64,000 nucleotides of DNA from Desulforamulus ferrireducens. Its GTDB lineage: Bacteria; Bacillota; Desulfotomaculia; Desulfotomaculales; Desulfotomaculaceae. Positions 25,702 through 33,380 of this stretch are shown piece after piece. The position numbers were made by a program, and so were the translations under genes. The stretch covers positions 1,860,001 through 1,924,000 of the forward strand of contig NZ_CP019698.1 in the NCBI RefSeq assembly GCF_002005145.1, in the 5' to 3' direction. The notes beneath the pieces are model-generated. The model was not told where the DNA came from. It worked only from the letters and a program-made list of their open reading frames with translations, and did not search any database. Numbering within the stretch: the first letter of the stretch is position 1; every line of letters starts with the position of its first letter.

Positions 25702-26145
25702 TTATTTAATTATCAGTAATGAATTTGTTAGGTTGCTAATCAACTTTTCTTTAACTTTACTGGAGGTATTACCCGGTGCTTTGGGTTTAGTACCTAAAAT
25801 TATTAAGTCATACTTCCCTTGCATTATTTCGTCGGCTATGATATTGGCGGGTTTCCCATTTCTCACCTTCCACTCCATTTCAACTCCCAGTGAGCTTGTG
25901 AGAGCGGTAAAGAATTCGTAAATCTCTTTTTGCTTGGTACGAGCCATATTGTGGATATACTCAATGAACTGATCCTTTGTAATAGCGCTGGCCAATTGGT
26001 CCACATAACCATAATGATCCAGGTGTGTCTCGGCAACATGAATAATGGTAACTTTACACTTCAGCAGTTTGATAAACTCAGTCAGCTCCTGCCGAAAGTT
26101 GTCCTTTTCTTCCCCATGTACAGCCACTAAAACGTTATTATACAT
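25702..26145 (-). CDS. Universal stress protein, UspA family
   Basis: 147 aa. Usp fold: YNNVLVAVHGEEKDNFRQE at the start, VTIIHVAETHLDH, and the C-terminal DLIILGTKPKAPGNTSSKVKEKLISNLTNSLLIIK. The ATP-binding loop G-x2-G-x9-G(S/T) is altered (GTKPKAPGNTSSK), so ATP binding is uncertain. It lies downstream of the yeiH/small-membrane-protein operon, but a strong terminator (26178-26212) separates it. Confidence 0.85.
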   Translation of the reverse strand: MYNNVLVAVHGEEKDNFRQELTEFIKLLKCKVTIIHVAETHLDHYGYVDQLASAITKDQFIEYIHNMARTKQKEIYEFFTALTSSLGVEMEWKVRNGKPANIIADEIMQGKYDLIILGTKPKAPGNTSSKVKEKLISNLTNSLLIIK

Positions 26146-26177
26146 AAAATCTCCCCTACTTTAACCTGCATATAGTA

Positions 26178-26212
26178 TGGCAGGGTAGGTTAAAATTTAA
26201 CCTACCCTGCCA
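26178..26212 (-). terminator. Strong terminator between the 41-aa gene and usp
   Basis: TGGCAGGGTAGGTTAAA (26178-26194) pairs throughout with TTTAACCTACCCTGCCA (26196-26212), a 17-bp stem with almost no loop. On the minus strand it lies just after the small gene's stop. Confidence 0.8.
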
Positions 26213-26229
26213 CCTACTGCAGAACCAAT

Positions 26230-26355
26230 TTATGCCATGATTTTAGATATAATCAACAAGATAATACCAAGGGTAATTACCATGTAGTCTTGTTTTCTAA
26301 CCTTCATATCAGCAGCTCTTTGCTCATTTATGGCAGCATTGTCCTTTTCACTCAT
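26230..26355 (-). CDS. 41-aa single-span membrane protein paired with YeiH transporter 1
   Basis: ATG at 26355 with GGAGGTG nine bases upstream, 41 bases after the stop of the transporter gene at 26397. It encodes a charged N-terminal half (SEKDNAAINEQRAADMKVRKQDY) and one hydrophobic helix (MVITLGIILLIISKIM) at the C-terminus. A strong terminator follows. The second YeiH gene at 32250-33380 is also followed by a small single-span protein with a similar junction (charged, E/Q-D-Y, then the helix). I infer an accessory subunit or stabiliser of the transporter; no family name is known to me. Confidence 0.75.
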   Translation of the reverse strand: MSEKDNAAINEQRAADMKVRKQDYMVITLGIILLIISKIMA

Positions 26356-26396
26356 TCAGTAGCACCTCCACTTTTATATTCTAGCTAACCGATTAA

Positions 26397-27473
26397 TTAA
26401 AAGGGAAGCAGATATTTTACTACCAGCAGTGCGATAATTGCCTTAGCAGCACCTACGATGAAACCTAGAATAATACCATCTTTACCTGCAGCCTTCATAT
26501 CGGAGAACTTGGTGGTCAAACCGATACTAGCAAAACCTAAGGCAAAGCACCAGTTCATGATATTACCAGCAAATTTAACTTCTTCTTTGCTGAATACACC
26601 AAAGGTGTTAGCAATAACGGCGATTAAGAAGGCCAGAACGAATACAGGGAACTTGTCCATAATAAATTGAGTTTTGTTAATGTTGCTGGAAGCTTGGGTA
26701 TCGTTTTTGAGAACGAACATTACAGCATACAGTACCACGAAGGGCAGTAATACTACACGACCCATGTTATAAATACCAGCCATTAGACCAGCATCTTGAC
26801 CATATGCCATACCGGCAGCCAGAACTTGAGCGGAGTTAACGATACCTACACCAACCCAGGCACCAAACTGGTTTTCAGTTAAGCCCATTGCTTTACCTAA
26901 AGCCGGGAAGGTAAAGAGTGCCAGCAGACCAAAGATCAGGATGGTGGCAATGGTGTAAGCCATTTCTTGACCTTTAGCTTTAACCGCAGGACCGGTAGCT
27001 ACGGTAGCGGAAACACCGCAAATGGAGAAACCAGCAGCTAAACAACCAGCTAATGAATCAGTCATTTTGAAATACTTACGTAACCAGAAGGTAAAAATAA
27101 CGGTAGCAAACAACATAATGGTAATGAAAGCCATACTTACTGAACCAACTTTAACCAAAGAGGCAAAGGTGTATTTGGTACCCATAATTACAATACCTGT
27201 TTTAGTTAAAATGGTTGAATACTTAAGGCCTGGCTCCAGAACAGAAGGAACACCAATGGTGTTACGAATGATCATACCAAATAGGATGGCTAATAGGATG
27301 TGGTTTAAAAGGGATACTTCATAAAATTTGGGATAATTTGTTTTCAGAAAACCTTCGCCCCACATAGCAGCCATAGCTAGCAATACAACTAAAATTAGTC
27401 CTGGAATTGCTTTAATAATTGTTTCACTAATGCTTTGACTTTTGACCTGTAATTGTGCTTGTGACAATTTCAA
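26397..27473 (-). CDS. YeiH/UPF0324-family transporter 1 (putative sulfate exporter family)
   Basis: 358 aa, TTG start at 27473 after GGAGGTG (a second TTG two codons on is possible). About ten hydrophobic helices. Family patterns: LNHILLAILFGMIIRNTIGVP, GLKYSTILTKTGIVIMGTKY, LAAGFSICGVSATVATGPAVKAKGQEMAYTIA, GVGIVNSAQVLAAGMAYG. The Cons_hypoth698 family is named for putative sulfate/sulfonate-derived anion export, though substrates are mostly unproven. Followed by the 41-aa membrane protein, preceded by a membrane-anchored protein; divergent from a two-component system that may control it. Confidence 0.9.
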   Translation of the reverse strand: MKLSQAQLQVKSQSISETIIKAIPGLILVVLLAMAAMWGEGFLKTNYPKFYEVSLLNHILLAILFGMIIRNTIGVPSVLEPGLKYSTILTKTGIVIMGTKYTFASLVKVGSVSMAFITIMLFATVIFTFWLRKYFKMTDSLAGCLAAGFSICGVSATVATGPAVKAKGQEMAYTIATILIFGLLALFTFPALGKAMGLTENQFGAWVGVGIVNSAQVLAAGMAYGQDAGLMAGIYNMGRVVLLPFVVLYAVMFVLKNDTQASSNINKTQFIMDKFPVFVLAFLIAVIANTFGVFSKEEVKFAGNIMNWCFALGFASIGLTTKFSDMKAAGKDGIILGFIVGAAKAIIALLVVKYLLPF

Positions 27474-27557
27474 TGCACCTCCATTTTTTTGACTTACTTA
27501 AATGAAACGCAAAGCAAGTTTTGTTTTCCAATCCTCCTCCTTCCGGTTAATAAGGTG

Positions 27558-28019
27558 CTAATATACAGAAACTAAGGGTAGGGTATCATAATATTGCTTA
27601 TCTTCTAATTTTGAAATGCTACGAACCAGGAAACTATTATCTTTAAACTGACCCCTTACTTCTACCTGGTCTTTTACTACCAAATCAATGGTTTCGTTAT
27701 ACTTCGGACCTACATATTTTCGGAAGATAGTATTTACTTGTCCATTAAGTTTTGTATCAATTACCATTTGACCTTCAATGCATATTAGGTCTCCATCAAC
27801 ATGTCTATCCCATTGTATTTCTATAATTTCACCAGAAATAACATCAACATCTGGAATTTGGGATTCCCTTAGTATCTTGTTTATTCTGCCAACATTTAAC
27901 ATTAACTTAGGTAATATAATAATTACTAAAGGTGTCAAGCATAGTATTAAAATTATTATCCAACCATACCATTTTACAAGCTTTTCTTTTTTAGGTTGAG
28001 AGACGATTTGTTTATGCAC
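27558..28019 (-). CDS. Membrane-anchored protein with a beta-rich extracytoplasmic domain, unknown
   Basis: 153 aa, GTG start about ten bases after GGGGATG. One membrane helix (about 18-42, WYGWIIILILCLTPLVIIILP) and then a small beta-strand-rich domain outside (ISGEIIEIQWDRHVDGDLICIEGQMVI, DLVVKDQVEVRGQFKDNSFLV) that looks like an OB-fold, but I do not recognise a family. It is the first gene on the minus side of the divergent promoter and lies 84 bases before the YeiH transporter gene, so probably co-transcribed and involved in the same function. Confidence 0.6.
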   Translation of the reverse strand: MHKQIVSQPKKEKLVKWYGWIIILILCLTPLVIIILPKLMLNVGRINKILRESQIPDVDVISGEIIEIQWDRHVDGDLICIEGQMVIDTKLNGQVNTIFRKYVGPKYNETIDLVVKDQVEVRGQFKDNSFLVRSISKLEDKQYYDTLPLVSVY

Positions 28020-28343
28020 TACATGATCATCCCCTACTATGTGTTCTCGCTTGTATTCACTTGCACAATCATCTTCTAATATTTGCTTTAATTGAATCTT
28101 AATATTTCTTTATCTAAGAATCAATAATTCAGGAAGACTATGAATGCAATTAGCCACGGGATGACACTTTTGCGTCAGTTCGCCGATTATTATTGTGTAT
28201 TCCACAGGACCATTATTTTGTCATATAGGTGACATTCGTTTAACAATCTATTGGAAATTGTCAAGAGGATTCCGGTATTGTTTGTCGAACATTAGCATAA
28301 TGAGCTAATAGTATAACTAAAAGTAATAATTGGATGGGATAAA
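28020..28343. promoter_or_regulatory. Divergent promoter region, YeiH locus and histidine kinase
   Basis: 324 bases between the divergent transporter operon and the kinase gene. AT-rich with TATA-like boxes (AATATTTCTTTATC) on the minus side and CATAATGAGCTAATAGTATAAC on the plus side. I see no strong palindrome. NarL-type sites cannot be called by eye here. Confidence 0.4.
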
Positions 28344-29969
28344 ATGTCAATAAACAAAAAGTATCTAACCATAGCAATTATTTTAGTTTTCCTTTCCTTA
28401 GCCAGCTGCTTATTTTTATTTAAAAATATCAATCAAGCACATTTGCAAATAAGCACGCTCCAGCAGGATCAAGGACGTATTGCCCAGTTACAGCAATTTA
28501 CCTACAACTTAGATCTTTTAGGTGTTAGTGTAGGTGATTATATTCTTTTTCAGAATGAGTCCGACTTAGATTTTTACTATAAGTCAGGATCGGATTTGCT
28601 TAAAGATGAAGTAAGTCTTTATGAACCTGAGAATCCCGAACGCAACAAAAAAGTTCTTGATTTAATAGAAACTTACCACGCTTATTTATCTTTTATTGAG
28701 TCCAGAGTCCTGCAAGAGGATATTGTCAATCGAGAAGCTTTGTTTCAAGATAATGAAGAATTTGCTAATAGTCTGAGAATAAAAGCCAATGTAGTCCTCA
28801 ATTCCTACCAACAAGAAGTAACCAGTTATTCCGAGGCAATTAATCATAACAGTAGTCAAATTAGGTATCTTGTGCTTTTTATATTAATCTCATCCCTTCT
28901 ACTGCTACCCTTTCTGTTATATTTGATTTTTAAACCTATTATTAAGAAGGGTTTATATCTGGACTATTGTTTTAGTAATACTGACACCTGCCTACTCTTT
29001 ATCAACAGTGAGGGTGTAGTGAAGGACATAAATAAAGCGGCCCAGGATCTTTTTGAGATGTTACCCGAGGCCCTATTGGAAAAGAATATTAATAAGTTTC
29101 CCGAAGAAATGCCTCAATTACAAAGAATAACCCAACCGTTGCTTCATACGCTGATGTATCAAGAGGAACAACTTAAAGTTCGGGTCACTTTTTACAAAGA
29201 TGGTCGTCCTATAGAATTATCAGTAGATTATATACCTGTCTTTTTAATGAATAGATTGGTGGGGGCCCTGATGATGGCTAGAACTGCCACCAATCAAAAG
29301 GATAAACCTCTTTTGTTGGATACCTTGGAAAAGGAAAGAAAGAGAATTTCCATTGAAATACACGATTGGATTGCCAGGTATATGTCTACCATCATTCATT
29401 CCTTAGATTTTTCCCTCAAATTGCACCAAAAAGGAGAATTAATGGGACAAGAATTAATGCAGCGTCTTTCCGACCTGAGGAACCATTGTCAAAACGCAGC
29501 CATCGAAATGCGCGGCATTATGAATGATATTCACCCTTACCTGATAGATAAAGTAGGGTTAATCTCGGCCTTAGAATCATATATACCAATCTTTGAAAAG
29601 TTAAATAAAATTAGGGTTTTTATTTTTTACCAAGATAGGGCTTTGCGTATTAAAAAGAAAGATGAGATTATTATCTACAGAATTATCCAAGAAGCTCTCA
29701 GTAATGTCGTTAAACATGCTAATGCCACAGAAGTGGATATTAATTTTACCATTGAAAACAAGTCTTTAACCATTGAAGTCATGGATAACGGGGATAAACA
29801 GGAGGATTTTGTGGCCGGCAAGGGTCTCTGGGGAATGAAAGAAAGGGCAAGTCTAATCGGTGCCGAAATTCATTTTGGATACTGTGAGACCGGCTTTTGT
29901 GTTACCCTCAAAGTACCTATTTTACCAGGAGGAGAAACAGATGGAGAAAATCAAAATTATGTTGATTGA
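28344..29969 (+). CDS. Sensor histidine kinase, NarL/LuxR-partner type (HisKA_3)
   Basis: 541 aa. Two membrane helices (about 8-26 and 177-197) enclose a helical extracytoplasmic sensor of about 150 residues. A PAS-like domain follows (about 205-315: DYCFSNTDTCLLFINSEGVVKDINKAAQDLF). The HisKA_3 box ERKRISIEIHDWIARY carries His 340, and the HATPase has RIIQEALSNVVKHANA and GKGLWGMKERA. The response regulator gene overlaps its 3' end by 29 bases. It probably senses an external small molecule and controls the divergent and convergent YeiH operons; this is inferred from position. Confidence 0.9.
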   Translation: MSINKKYLTIAIILVFLSLASCLFLFKNINQAHLQISTLQQDQGRIAQLQQFTYNLDLLGVSVGDYILFQNESDLDFYYKSGSDLLKDEVSLYEPENPERNKKVLDLIETYHAYLSFIESRVLQEDIVNREALFQDNEEFANSLRIKANVVLNSYQQEVTSYSEAINHNSSQIRYLVLFILISSLLLLPFLLYLIFKPIIKKGLYLDYCFSNTDTCLLFINSEGVVKDINKAAQDLFEMLPEALLEKNINKFPEEMPQLQRITQPLLHTLMYQEEQLKVRVTFYKDGRPIELSVDYIPVFLMNRLVGALMMARTATNQKDKPLLLDTLEKERKRISIEIHDWIARYMSTIIHSLDFSLKLHQKGELMGQELMQRLSDLRNHCQNAAIEMRGIMNDIHPYLIDKVGLISALESYIPIFEKLNKIRVFIFYQDRALRIKKKDEIIIYRIIQEALSNVVKHANATEVDINFTIENKSLTIEVMDNGDKQEDFVAGKGLWGMKERASLIGAEIHFGYCETGFCVTLKVPILPGGETDGENQNYVD

Positions 29970-30555
29970 AGACCATAACGTCTTCCGACAGGGGCTTAAG
30001 CAACTACTGGAACTGGAAAATAATATGTCGGTGGTGGCTGAAGCTGGCTCTTGCCAAGAAGCCTTAGCTAAACTAACTCCTGATATTGATGTGATTTTGC
30101 TTGATATCGGTTTACCTGACGGAGATGGGTTGGATTTAGCAGTACAAATCAAGAATAAGTATCCCAACATTAAGCATGTCGCCCTTACCACCTATGATGA
30201 TCCCATCTTTATAAAAAAGGCTATGGAATGCGGTGTAAAGGGATTTGTACCAAAATATGCCTTTTTTGATGAAATAAAATCCGCTGTACTAATGACAAGC
30301 CGCGGCGGTTCCTATTTATATCCAGGATTAAATACCGAAACCTTACTTCATCTTTCTGATGTCGGATTATCTGATAAAGAAATGAACATTCTTAGTTTGT
30401 TAGCCAGTGGCAAAAATCAGAAGGAAATTGCCTCTGATTTATATATGAGCCTTTCAACCTTTAGAAGAAGATTAAGGGATATTTTTACCAAACTAAATGT
30501 ACACTCAGTGGAAGAAGCCCTGACCGTTGCCGTAAAGAGGGGCATTATCAAGTAA
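29941..30555 (+). CDS. LuxR/NarL-type response regulator
   Basis: 204 aa from the ATG at 29941, ten bases after AGGAGGAG; it overlaps the kinase gene by 29 bases, showing translational coupling. Receiver with LIEDHNVFRQGLKQLL and phospho-acceptor D55 in VILLDIGLPDGDG. The HTH is LuxR-type at about 140-200 (LSDKEMNILSLLASGKNQKEIASDLYMSLSTFRRRLRDIF). The residue usually Lys before the turn is retained in KYAF only loosely. Confidence 0.92.
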   Translation: MEKIKIMLIEDHNVFRQGLKQLLELENNMSVVAEAGSCQEALAKLTPDIDVILLDIGLPDGDGLDLAVQIKNKYPNIKHVALTTYDDPIFIKKAMECGVKGFVPKYAFFDEIKSAVLMTSRGGSYLYPGLNTETLLHLSDVGLSDKEMNILSLLASGKNQKEIASDLYMSLSTFRRRLRDIFTKLNVHSVEEALTVAVKRGIIK

Positions 30556-30573
30556 TTACTCGGAGGAAGTGCC

Positions 30574-32025
30574 ATGAAACAGTCCCCCTTAATCCGAACC
30601 TTTTTCCCTAGTTTTTTTACGGTATTCCTCATTAGTATATTTATTGTTTTTGCTATCATGGAGTATCGCCACACCAAAAATCTCTTTAGCCAATATGAAG
30701 CAGGTATTCAGCAGATAGCATTAAGTAATACCAACCGGTTTCTGGATGACATAAATAATATTACAGTTGATGCAGCCAGAAGAATTGAGGTACAAAACAT
30801 TAACATTAATCAACATATAGATACCCTAATACGAAACCCTCTGATTAAGGATGTCTATGTCTTGACCAGTGATGGCAATATTATAGCCGCCAGTAATGCT
30901 GAACGTACCATCAGTAACTCTTTAGTCAGTGATGCAGCAAAGCTAAAAAAATATACTACCTTGATGTCCCCTGTCCACGATGACAAAACTTCTGGCAATA
31001 AGCTTGTTACCATCTTTACACCCTTGCCAAATTATGAGCAAGGTATCTTGGTCATTGATTTTTCCCTGGAAAAGTTTCAAAATATGATCTTACAAGATTT
31101 AATAAGCAAGAATTTCACTGTTGCCGTCTTTGATCAAAACGGCAATGCCGTTTTCTGGCCCTTTGAGGACAAGCTACTCAGTGGGTTCGTTTTTAACCAG
31201 GAAAGCTATGTGTTAGAAAACAAAAGATATAATGTCCTTTCGGCACAAACAGACAACGCCTGGCTTATTTATTTCTTCTTTCCGGCTAACAATATTGAAA
31301 TATTTAGAGCTATTACCGTTTTGCTGCTGGTTTTTGCCTTGTATGTTTGCCTTTACGAACTGTTGGTGGAGTACTGGGGGGTCAATACAGCTAAAACCTA
31401 CTTTGAAAACATTGATTTTGCCATTTTTAACCAAATTAACGAAGGAGTAATTATTGCTAATAACTCGGGGCGAATTTTATTTGCCAACGAAACCGCTCAT
31501 CATATGTTTGCCGAACGAAAAAACCTCTTAAGAAATGTTCGTCTTAAGGAAATTCTCGGCAATGTGGATTTGCAAAGGGAAAATTACGGTTCCCAATCCT
31601 TTTCCTTAAAGTTATCGGATAAGTTGTTAAAGGCCATCCACTCGCCAATTATTAAAAACAATAAGATATTGGGGTCCCTTACGGTACTTAGAAACGAAGT
31701 GGATGGTGATACCAGTATCTCCCATGTTATGGATAAGGTCTTTGAGAGTATTCCCCAGGGTATCATTTTTGTCAATAAGCAACATGAAATTTCCCAGGCC
31801 AACCTTATTGCCAAATGTTACTTTGCCAACCTAATCAAAGGTATCAGTATTGAGTTGGTGGACCGGGAATTGGCTGACTTTATTTATAAGAACATTGATT
31901 CTGGTTCCGTGAAAAGAGTACAACTTTCCTCAGGGGTCACCTGTGAAGTTACCCCCGTGCATGATGAAGATGGTATCTATGTGGGAACCGTTGTTTATAT
32001 TCTTAGTGAAACTACAGCAATATAA
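30574..32025 (+). CDS. Cache-PAS sensor protein without an output domain
   Basis: 483 aa, ATG after CGGAGGA, 18 bases downstream of the response regulator and thus in its operon. Membrane helix (about 10-30), a Cache-type extracytoplasmic domain (about 35-225: DVYVLTSDGNIIAASNAERT, FTVAVFDQNGNAVFWPF), second helix (about 230-255), then two PAS domains (about 280-370 and 385-480). After the second PAS the protein ends; no HisKA, HATPase, GGDEF, HAMP-MCP or HTH domain is present. It may pass a signal to the adjacent kinase by contact. Truncation is possible, but a terminator follows within a few bases, so the end looks natural. Confidence 0.8.
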   Translation: MKQSPLIRTFFPSFFTVFLISIFIVFAIMEYRHTKNLFSQYEAGIQQIALSNTNRFLDDINNITVDAARRIEVQNININQHIDTLIRNPLIKDVYVLTSDGNIIAASNAERTISNSLVSDAAKLKKYTTLMSPVHDDKTSGNKLVTIFTPLPNYEQGILVIDFSLEKFQNMILQDLISKNFTVAVFDQNGNAVFWPFEDKLLSGFVFNQESYVLENKRYNVLSAQTDNAWLIYFFFPANNIEIFRAITVLLLVFALYVCLYELLVEYWGVNTAKTYFENIDFAIFNQINEGVIIANNSGRILFANETAHHMFAERKNLLRNVRLKEILGNVDLQRENYGSQSFSLKLSDKLLKAIHSPIIKNNKILGSLTVLRNEVDGDTSISHVMDKVFESIPQGIIFVNKQHEISQANLIAKCYFANLIKGISIELVDRELADFIYKNIDSGSVKRVQLSSGVTCEVTPVHDEDGIYVGTVVYILSETTAI

Positions 32026-32056
32026 AACCCTTACCGATTTTTGGTAAGGGTTTTTT
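32025..32056 (+). terminator. Terminator of the two-component operon
   Basis: AAACCCTTACC (32025-32035) with GGTAAGGGTTT (32043-32053), then a T run to 32057. It begins at the stop codon of the sensor gene. Confidence 0.92.
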
Positions 32057-32063
32057 TGCGTCT

Positions 32064-32237
32064 TTATTGATGCATGATCAGTACTAATATAATTATTAAG
32101 GCAGCTAAAGATAAAGCGGCATAGTCTTCCATGCGTTCCGTTAAAAAGGGAGAAAAGAGTCTTGGTGTATTTGGTGCATTCTCCTTGTCTTTTTTCTTTC
32201 TTTCTAATTCGGTATCCCTTAACTTTTCATTCTTCAC
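32064..32237 (-). CDS. 57-aa single-span membrane protein paired with YeiH transporter 2
   Basis: GTG at 32237, seven bases after GGTGATG, 12 bases after the transporter stop. Very charged N-terminus (KNEKLRDTELERKKKDKEN), a linker, then MEDY and one helix (AALSLAALIIILVLIM). The layout mirrors the 41-aa protein behind the other YeiH gene: both end in a helix that begins right after Asp-Tyr. It is convergent with the sensor operon. A longer plus-strand frame over the same DNA has no family character. Probably an accessory subunit; unknown family. Confidence 0.72.
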   Translation of the reverse strand: MKNEKLRDTELERKKKDKENAPNTPRLFSPFLTERMEDYAALSLAALIIILVLIMHQ

Positions 32238-32249
32238 TTTATCATCACC

Positions 32250-33380
32250 TTATGGTTGCTCCGGTATTAGTAACAAAACAACTATTAGCGCCAGAACAGC
32301 TTTTAACAACGCCGCCGCTGAACCCACCAGCAAAGGCTTCCCCCCTGCCCTGGTTAATTCAGAAAAGGATATCTGCATACCTAAGCCGGTTAAGCCTATG
32401 GCAAAGAACCAGTTGTAGAGCTTGCGGATGGTAATTAACTCTGGGGAGGGTGGAGAACTCTGGCCAAAAAAACCTAGGGAAGTCAAAAAGACCATGGCTA
32501 AAAAACCAATCACAAAAACAGGGAACTTGCTGGCCAGGCCAGTATGAATATTAATCTCATCATCAGGCAACTTAGCTGTGCGCGTGGTTATGGCAGCCAG
32601 CCCAAGCACCACAAAGGGCAAAAACAATACTCTGGCTAAATTATAGATCTCACCGGTTTTTAAACTTTCAGAAGCATGATTGGCAGTACCTGGGTCGAAG
32701 ATCAGACAAACTGCCAGAACCTGTCCGGAACTTAATATGCCTGTACCGGCCCACACCCCAAACTGGTGGGGGCTTAATTCCAGCAGGTGACCAATAAAGG
32801 GAAATACAAAGATAGATACCACACCGAAAGTAAGGATAGTGGCAATGGAAAAAACTACATCGGTGGTTTTAGCCCTTACCGCCGGAGCTGTGGCTACAAT
32901 GGCAGATACCCCGCAAACGGCCGTCCCGGCAGCTAATACCGCTGCGGAGGATGGGTCCATACCGGTGCGTTTTCCCAGCCAGAGGGTGAAAAACAGGGTT
33001 AAAATGATAAAGGTCGTTATTAAAATAATAGCGGTGAAACCCAGTTTTGCTACGTCTGCCAGGCTATACAGGGAGCCTAACAGGATTACCCCTAATTTAA
33101 TAAATAACCGGGAGGTGGATACCCCTGCCATAATCCAACGTGGTAGAGTAAAAAGATTACCAATTAACATACCTATTAAGATGCAGAGCAGTATGTAGTT
33201 TAAACGAAGCACATCCACAAAAAAGGTCTTGGTCAAAGAGTTTATTTTTAGATATGATTCCAGTCCTGGCCAAGGTATACCAAGGTCTTCGCCACCCATA
33301 GTCAGCACTGCTATAGAAAACATTAACAGAATACCGGGAATGGTTTTTAAGACTCCTAAGGTTTTATTGGAATATGTCAT
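32250..33380 (-). CDS. YeiH/UPF0324-family transporter 2
   Basis: 376 aa, ATG start. Same family as the protein at 26397-27473: LNYILLCILIGMLIGNLFTLP, AAVLAAGTAVCGVSAIVATAPAVRAKTTDVVFSIATILTFGVV, GTGILSSGQVLAVCLIFDPG. The two are clearly diverged paralogues. It is longer, with an extra periplasmic-type loop near residues 20-55 (GGEDLGIPWPGLESYLKIN). Followed by its own small membrane protein and convergent with the two-component operon. Confidence 0.88.
   Translation of the reverse strand: MTYSNKTLGVLKTIPGILLMFSIAVLTMGGEDLGIPWPGLESYLKINSLTKTFFVDVLRLNYILLCILIGMLIGNLFTLPRWIMAGVSTSRLFIKLGVILLGSLYSLADVAKLGFTAIILITTFIILTLFFTLWLGKRTGMDPSSAAVLAAGTAVCGVSAIVATAPAVRAKTTDVVFSIATILTFGVVSIFVFPFIGHLLELSPHQFGVWAGTGILSSGQVLAVCLIFDPGTANHASESLKTGEIYNLARVLFLPFVVLGLAAITTRTAKLPDDEINIHTGLASKFPVFVIGFLAMVFLTSLGFFGQSSPPSPELITIRKLYNWFFAIGLTGLGMQISFSELTRAGGKPLLVGSAAALLKAVLALIVVLLLIPEQP

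Follow-up and report, generated by a model that had tools for sequence, protein, structure and literature searches.

Introduction

The transporter family PF03601 (Cons_hypoth698, putative sulfate exporter; TC 2.A.98, the PSE family) includes a 9-transmembrane (TM) form, PSE_1, which is without TM1 of the related 2HCT family, and an 11-TM form, PSE_2, with two extra N-terminal helices; the sections of the topology work drawn on here describe no small subunit for the family (PMC8396727). In Desulforamulus ferrireducens, a 64,000-nt stretch of the 3.24-Mb genome (C1:1860001-1924000, hereafter the window) encodes two PF03601 transporters, YeiH_A and YeiH_B, each followed by a gene for a tiny one-helix protein, small A and small B. 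Desulforamulus is a spore-forming sulfate reducer. The transporter-small gene pair recurs in distant phyla and a like helix is fused to related transporters, which makes the tiny protein a probable, hitherto missing transporter subunit. We favor the view that one PF03601 clade has a single-helix subunit dedicated to it, namely these small proteins, and that its transporters consist of two subunits, with the scaffold or dimer helix detached. An earlier note made from the sequence of the window had proposed small accessory subunits that had not been described before, a proposal now well supported by conservation across several phyla, clade-wide association and the fused like helix. Our literature search found no paper on these small proteins.

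What is new is the small-subunit family, which belongs to a known transporter family; the general kind, a detached single-helix subunit, is known. Subunit IIa of the B-type (ba3) cytochrome oxidases, a one-helix protein of ~40 aa long overlooked by annotation, is the equivalent of an N-terminal helix that the related A-type enzymes carry in their own polypeptide, and we propose the same relationship here; it differs in belonging to a respiratory oxidase, not a secondary transporter, and in having been shown biochemically (PMC3128077). TM -1 of NHA2 (SLC9B2), an extra N-terminal helix on a NapA-like elevator transporter, mediates homodimer formation (PMC8850199), but it lies in the same chain, belongs to a cation/proton exchanger and is likened to the present helix by description, not sequence. 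AcrZ, another small one-helix protein, binds the transporter AcrB, which differs in being an RND pump (PMC7267776). YeiH_A and YeiH_B are members of PF03601, and their long relatives look like PSE_2 (PMC8396727), whereas in one clade a helix resembling the first of the two extra ones has a gene to itself. In the window, small A is followed by a gene for a universal stress protein (Usp). TeaD is a Usp encoded with the TRAP transporter TeaABC and is thought to tune transport; it likewise has its gene in a transporter operon, although the transporter family is a different one and coupling in our case is suggested by gene order. To our knowledge, AcrZ is not encoded beside AcrB and is without a fused form.

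Results

Small one-helix genes accompany one clade of PF03601 transporters

We searched for one-helix open reading frames (ORFs) of 25-95 aa preceded by a Shine-Dalgarno (SD) site within 200 nt downstream of PF03601 genes, with the same criteria applied to control genes (other genes of at least 200 aa in the same loci). PF03601 was present in 59/100 genomes of the order. A small ORF followed 75 of 118 distinct PF03601 genes in the order, compared with 8/326 control genes; none of the 21 controls with several helices had one. The earlier note had suggested such a comparison among relatives. The small proteins fall into four families, with the motifs RRQDYxVIxLG..LAKIxA (A), LFATERxEDYxALSLA (B), SLFxxxRxEDxxA (C) and EWxDLxPxEKKLIxYSLxLG (D), and 12 of them, covering types A-D, gave no match above any cut-off in Pfam or NCBIfam. 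When named genomes were scanned, the pair was found in Desulfofundulus, Moorella, Desulfosporosinus, Desulfovibrio relatives, Desulfocapsa and Desulfomonile, and also in many Beta- and Gammaproteobacteria (individual examples from the scan, not a rate), Magnetococcales, Nitrospirae and one Hyphomicrobiaceae bin. In the Desulfobacterota, Proteobacteria, Magnetococcales and Nitrospirae, a Usp gene often comes next after the pair. A plasmid collection held no match to a small C protein.

The association follows phylogeny. In a FastTree tree of 172 transporter proteins, a clade of 90 (types A, B, C and a lipoyl type; support 0.999) has the separate small gene in 89 cases. A second clade of 65 (support 1.0) consists of fused or D types in 64 cases, the remaining member starting too late to display the helix, and a canonical YeiH-like group (10 proteins plus one more; support 0.998) has neither the separate gene nor the fused helix. 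The tree is rooted by midpoint only, so that either fission or fusion may have come first.

Like SgrT, MgrB or AcrZ, the small protein could instead be a regulator that binds the transporter or the kinase encoded nearby under certain conditions only, to inhibit or stabilize its target or to relay a signal. Its size and topology suit such a regulator, and the neighboring Usp and sensor genes suggest regulation. However, its near-strict presence in one clade, also in phyla without the sensor genes, and the fusion of a like helix in another clade point to a constitutive part, and we consider a purely regulatory role rather unlikely.

The Usp gene comes after the transporter-small pair in 21/21 loci of type A and 27/30 of type C, compared with 3/35 of type B and 0/30 of type D. 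At three Desulfovibrio-type loci (L150:7991, L156:8245 and L158:8014 onward, + strand), a DRHED[VM]AAM helix is continued by ~90 more residues which, by eye, look like a biotinyl/lipoyl hairpin domain and presumably lie outside the membrane. In these loci, too, a Usp gene comes after the lipoyl-type small gene.

The small genes are under purifying selection

Small A and small B have orthologues in 7/10 and 9/10 genomes of the family, respectively. Besides this locus, the orthologues occupy the same place of the same cluster in six congeners, in which the kept order is YeiH_B-small B, then histidine kinase (HK)-response regulator (RR)-Cache-PAS on the opposite strand, then 153-aa protein-YeiH_A-small A-Usp. 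In one congener (L022:5900-11100), ~5 kb of other sequence separates small B from the Cache-PAS gene.

The earlier note had named a Ka/Ks near 1 and a lack of conservation in relatives as outcomes that would speak against it. Instead, the median ratio of nonsynonymous to synonymous substitution (dN/dS) was ~0.11 for small A and ~0.15 for small B, compared with 0.05 for the transporters (rough figures, because many pairs are saturated at synonymous sites), and conservation extends from genus orthologues to order-wide and cross-phylum pairs. Variable sites at the first, second and third codon positions numbered 18/12/38 over 41 codons of small A and 31/20/44 over 46 codons of small B. Judged by these substitution patterns, both genes are under purifying selection. 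Short ORFs are common (119 of at least 30 aa in a 15-kb stretch), as one would expect if the small ORFs were chance or non-functional downstream frames. Control-gene counts and dN/dS led us to reject a chance origin and, together with the SD sites, synteny and recurrence in several phyla, make such an explanation extremely improbable.

A like helix is fused to long transporters

Transporters of 440-600 aa that have no separate small A, B or C begin with a helix after L-x-K-x-ED[WY]W-A-[VI]-W-[LM]-G and are probably the published 11-TM form PSE_2 (PMC8396727). YeiH_A and YeiH_B are without this ED[WY]W helix and fall outside PSE_2, which has the two extra N-terminal helices in the chain. In hhalign comparisons with the fused forms E (440-480 aa) and F (590 aa), the best local match of small A, B and C was this N-terminal helix, with the ED residues aligned. 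A small B/C profile, searched against all six frames of a whole genome, likewise matched the N-terminus of a 595-aa PF03601 protein (G015, E 0.005). We then ran a hidden Markov model (HMM) of 84 small A/B/C proteins over 2,841 ORFs: the small-protein frames ranked first, followed solely by fused N-termini, in register and above all other proteins. The best fused N-terminus reached 16.6 bits, compared with 5.1 bits for the top other protein, and none of 200 column shuffles (100 full and 100 helix-only) attained that score. In several genera, the fused form takes the place of YeiH_A and small A next to the HK-RR-Cache-PAS genes. In L169, a 781-aa frame that ends in a small-protein match proved to be an out-of-frame ORF over the transporter gene and is no fusion.

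Alternatively, the small proteins and the long-form N-terminal helix could be convergent, that is, unrelated helices sharing an acidic-aromatic motif at the membrane edge. The match is short, single E-values are weak, and the hhalign probability is 54% between A and B and 2.5% between A and C. Against convergence stand the rank above ~2,800 proteins, the register, the shuffles and the positional replacement of YeiH_A and small A by the fused form; we regard it as improbable, marginally more so than a regulatory role.

Structure models place the helix outside the transporter core

The AlphaFold2 (AF2) model of YeiH_B matches NapA (Z 15.6, 263 residues, 3.7 A) and also CitS, SbtA and NHA2; a sequence search found no solved structure. 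Within the limits of a model, YeiH_B thus has a CPA/AT-type elevator fold. When YeiH_B was read through in frame into small B, with the stop read as Gly as a modeling device only, AF2 returned a predicted TM-score (pTM) of 0.78 and a good per-residue confidence (pLDDT) in the core. For a fused form from Moorella, the pTM was 0.80 and the ED helix (residues 20-47) lay outside the NapA-like core (98-456). Both models contain a NapA/CitS-like elevator core with the helix outside the aligned part, which is consistent with, though not decisive for, a detached helix.

What is the role of the small helix?

Several observations weigh against a detached subunit. Support for such a role is entirely comparative, coming from sequence conservation, the link to one clade, the likeness to the fused helix and the conserved gene order. 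The match to the fused helix covers ~20 residues, for which reason single E-values are weak (hhalign 0.0016-0.18; HMM 0.001-0.2) and for homology we rely on rank, register and shuffles; moreover, helix-only shuffles rose to 14.2 bits, so the ED motif gives part of the signal. In the read-through model, the small B helix has a pLDDT of ~90, but AF2 did not return the inter-domain error and we therefore make no docking claim. Type D transporters combine a fused helix with an unrelated small protein; not every small protein, then, replaces the helix. Three A-like transporters (387-396 aa; L084, L085 and L092) lack both the small gene and the fused ED helix. Finally, sulfite or sulfate as a substrate is carried over from distant canonical YeiH. 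In the loci of the three A-like transporters, a Usp gene comes directly next.

On balance, we still favor a dedicated subunit. From the comparisons above we infer a topology, a binding site and a role in the dimer. The small-protein helix would probably be N-in, with the conserved R-x-[EQ]-D motif before the helix at the inner membrane edge. It would pack on the transporter scaffold as the trans equivalent of the first additional helix at the N-terminus of the long forms (K-x-ED[WY]W-A-[VI]-W) and most likely stabilize or set the dimer interface of an elevator-type carrier. The cytosolic tail could receive a signal, in types A and C possibly from the Usp encoded next. More tentatively, and with less than even confidence, the large multi-phylum clade may be an obligate two-subunit elevator transporter in which a separately translated 30-60-aa protein gives a scaffold or dimer helix in trans, its cytosolic tail couples the carrier to a Usp sensor, and the short and long forms arose by fission or fusion of the helix.

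Expression or assays of split-clade transporters without the small gene may fail for want of a subunit. Because current family models do not detect the small genes, they can be missed in annotation and lost or disrupted in knock-outs and heterologous expression. Taken together, fused and split forms offer a way to test directly what an elevator transporter does with an extra helix.

Organization of the locus

Both transporters are followed on the same strand by a tiny gene with its own ribosome site, as first noticed in the sequence; coordinates and SD sites were verified (Table 1). The site of small B, AAGGTGA, lies 7 nt upstream of the GTG, and the two small genes start 12-41 nt downstream of their PF03601 transporters. 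Each small protein ends, again as noticed, in a single helix directly after (Q/E)DY.

Table 1. Features of the transporter-sensor locus, in positions of the window.
Feature	Position	Strand	Evidence
Usp, final gene of operon A	25702..26145	-	PF00582 2.3e-8, 35.1 bits vs gathering 24; syntenic in congeners
Small protein A, 41 aa, ATG start, one TM helix after R-K-Q-D-Y	26230..26355	-	
SD site of small A (GGAGGTG), 7 nt upstream of its ATG	26363..26369	-	sequence
YeiH_A, PF03601 transporter, 358 aa	26397..27473	-	PF03601 2.7e-64
153-aa protein, single N-terminal TM helix, opens operon A, kept across genus	27558..28019	-	
Palindrome TGACAC-TTTT-GCGTCA between divergent operons	28162..28177	.	kept in the six congeners compared, one with variant
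Membrane sensor kinase: PAS, HisKA_3, HATPase_c; NarX-like architecture	28344..29969	+	profile match
Response regulator, Response_reg + GerE (LuxR-type), ATG start	29941..30555	+	profile match
dCache-PAS-PAS membrane sensor, without output domain	30574..32025	+	profile match
Small protein B, 57 aa, GTG start, one TM helix after T-E-R-M-E-D-Y	32064..32237	-	
Shine-Dalgarno TAAGGTGA of small B, overlaps YeiH_B stop codon	32245..32252	-	sequence
YeiH_B, PF03601 transporter, 376 aa	32250..33380	-	PF03601 9.9e-60

The designation as two YeiH transporters stands in part. YeiH_A and YeiH_B score 217.5 and 202.4 bits against PF03601 (gathering threshold 24.5), but reach only 137.9 and 128.7 bits against TIGR00698, the YeiH subfamily (cut-off 232.6), so that YeiH is a loose name for them, and the genome holds two further PF03601 genes. 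Likewise, the inventory of the locus was right as far as it went, but operon A also includes the Usp gene and the gene for the 153-aa protein. The latter matched no Pfam or NCBIfam family above cut-off; in some relatives, it sits downstream of Usp.

Profile matches bear out the kinase/regulator pair and the Cache-PAS protein between the operons. The kinase (HisKA_3 and HATPase_c) and the regulator (receiver and GerE) have the NarX/NarL architecture but score 64.5 and 85.2 bits against equivalog cut-offs of 578 and 250; the likeness is therefore one of architecture and does not indicate a nitrate system.

All four PF03601 genes of the genome are followed by a small ORF. After the third (at 602 kb) come MSEKKEERQLSLFSNEKSEDLAAIIGAAVVMLLVIIL with AAAGGAGG and then a Usp-like gene, and a permease that is TauE/SafE-like by eye precedes it. 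At this third locus (L030:4004-8082), one strand carries the TauE/SafE-like permease, a 238-aa protein, YeiH_C, small C and the Usp-like gene. The fourth, of 497 aa (L031:6245-7952, 1440688 region), has a fused N-terminal EDWW helix and is followed by a separate one-helix protein of 57 aa from a different, unrelated family, type D (EWxDLxPxEKKLI), which also occurs in other Firmicutes families.

Substrate and regulation

The link between YeiH-type transporters and sulfite resistance is recent. In Salmonella, YeiH is the chief factor for resistance to sulfite (PMC12880088), and in Hyphomicrobium denitrificans it is the most thiosulfate-induced gene (526-fold) and is read as a sulfite exporter (PMC12423496, PMC11582611). 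A survey of sulfate transporters in sulfate reducers did not treat YeiH (PMC5840216). By analogy, we infer that the substrate of YeiH_A and YeiH_B is probably sulfite or sulfate and that anion export is plausible; the assignment is an extrapolation because both proteins score below the TIGR00698 cut-off. Such a substrate fits the sulfate-reducing hosts and the presence of a TauE-like gene at the third locus. Sulfate reducers respire via toxic sulfite, and they keep several copies of the transporter, two of which adjoin a sensor system of their own.

In almost all of the loci of Desulfotomaculales type that were seen, the sensor genes flank YeiH_B and a second PF03601 transporter. This conserved gene order supports the suggestion that transporters and sensor genes belong together, and by the same measure the genes for the kinase, the regulator and the Cache-PAS protein form a conserved part of it. 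The two transporter operons belong to a locus that also encodes a NarL-type two-component system and a Cache-PAS sensor, which may regulate them. In the divergent promoter region between the kinase and operon A, a palindrome, TGACAC-N4-G(C/T)GTCA, is kept in congeners; no copy of it was found upstream of YeiH_B. A second, near-perfect copy at C1:1712054, also present in two congeners, precedes the gene for an unrelated 191-aa protein.

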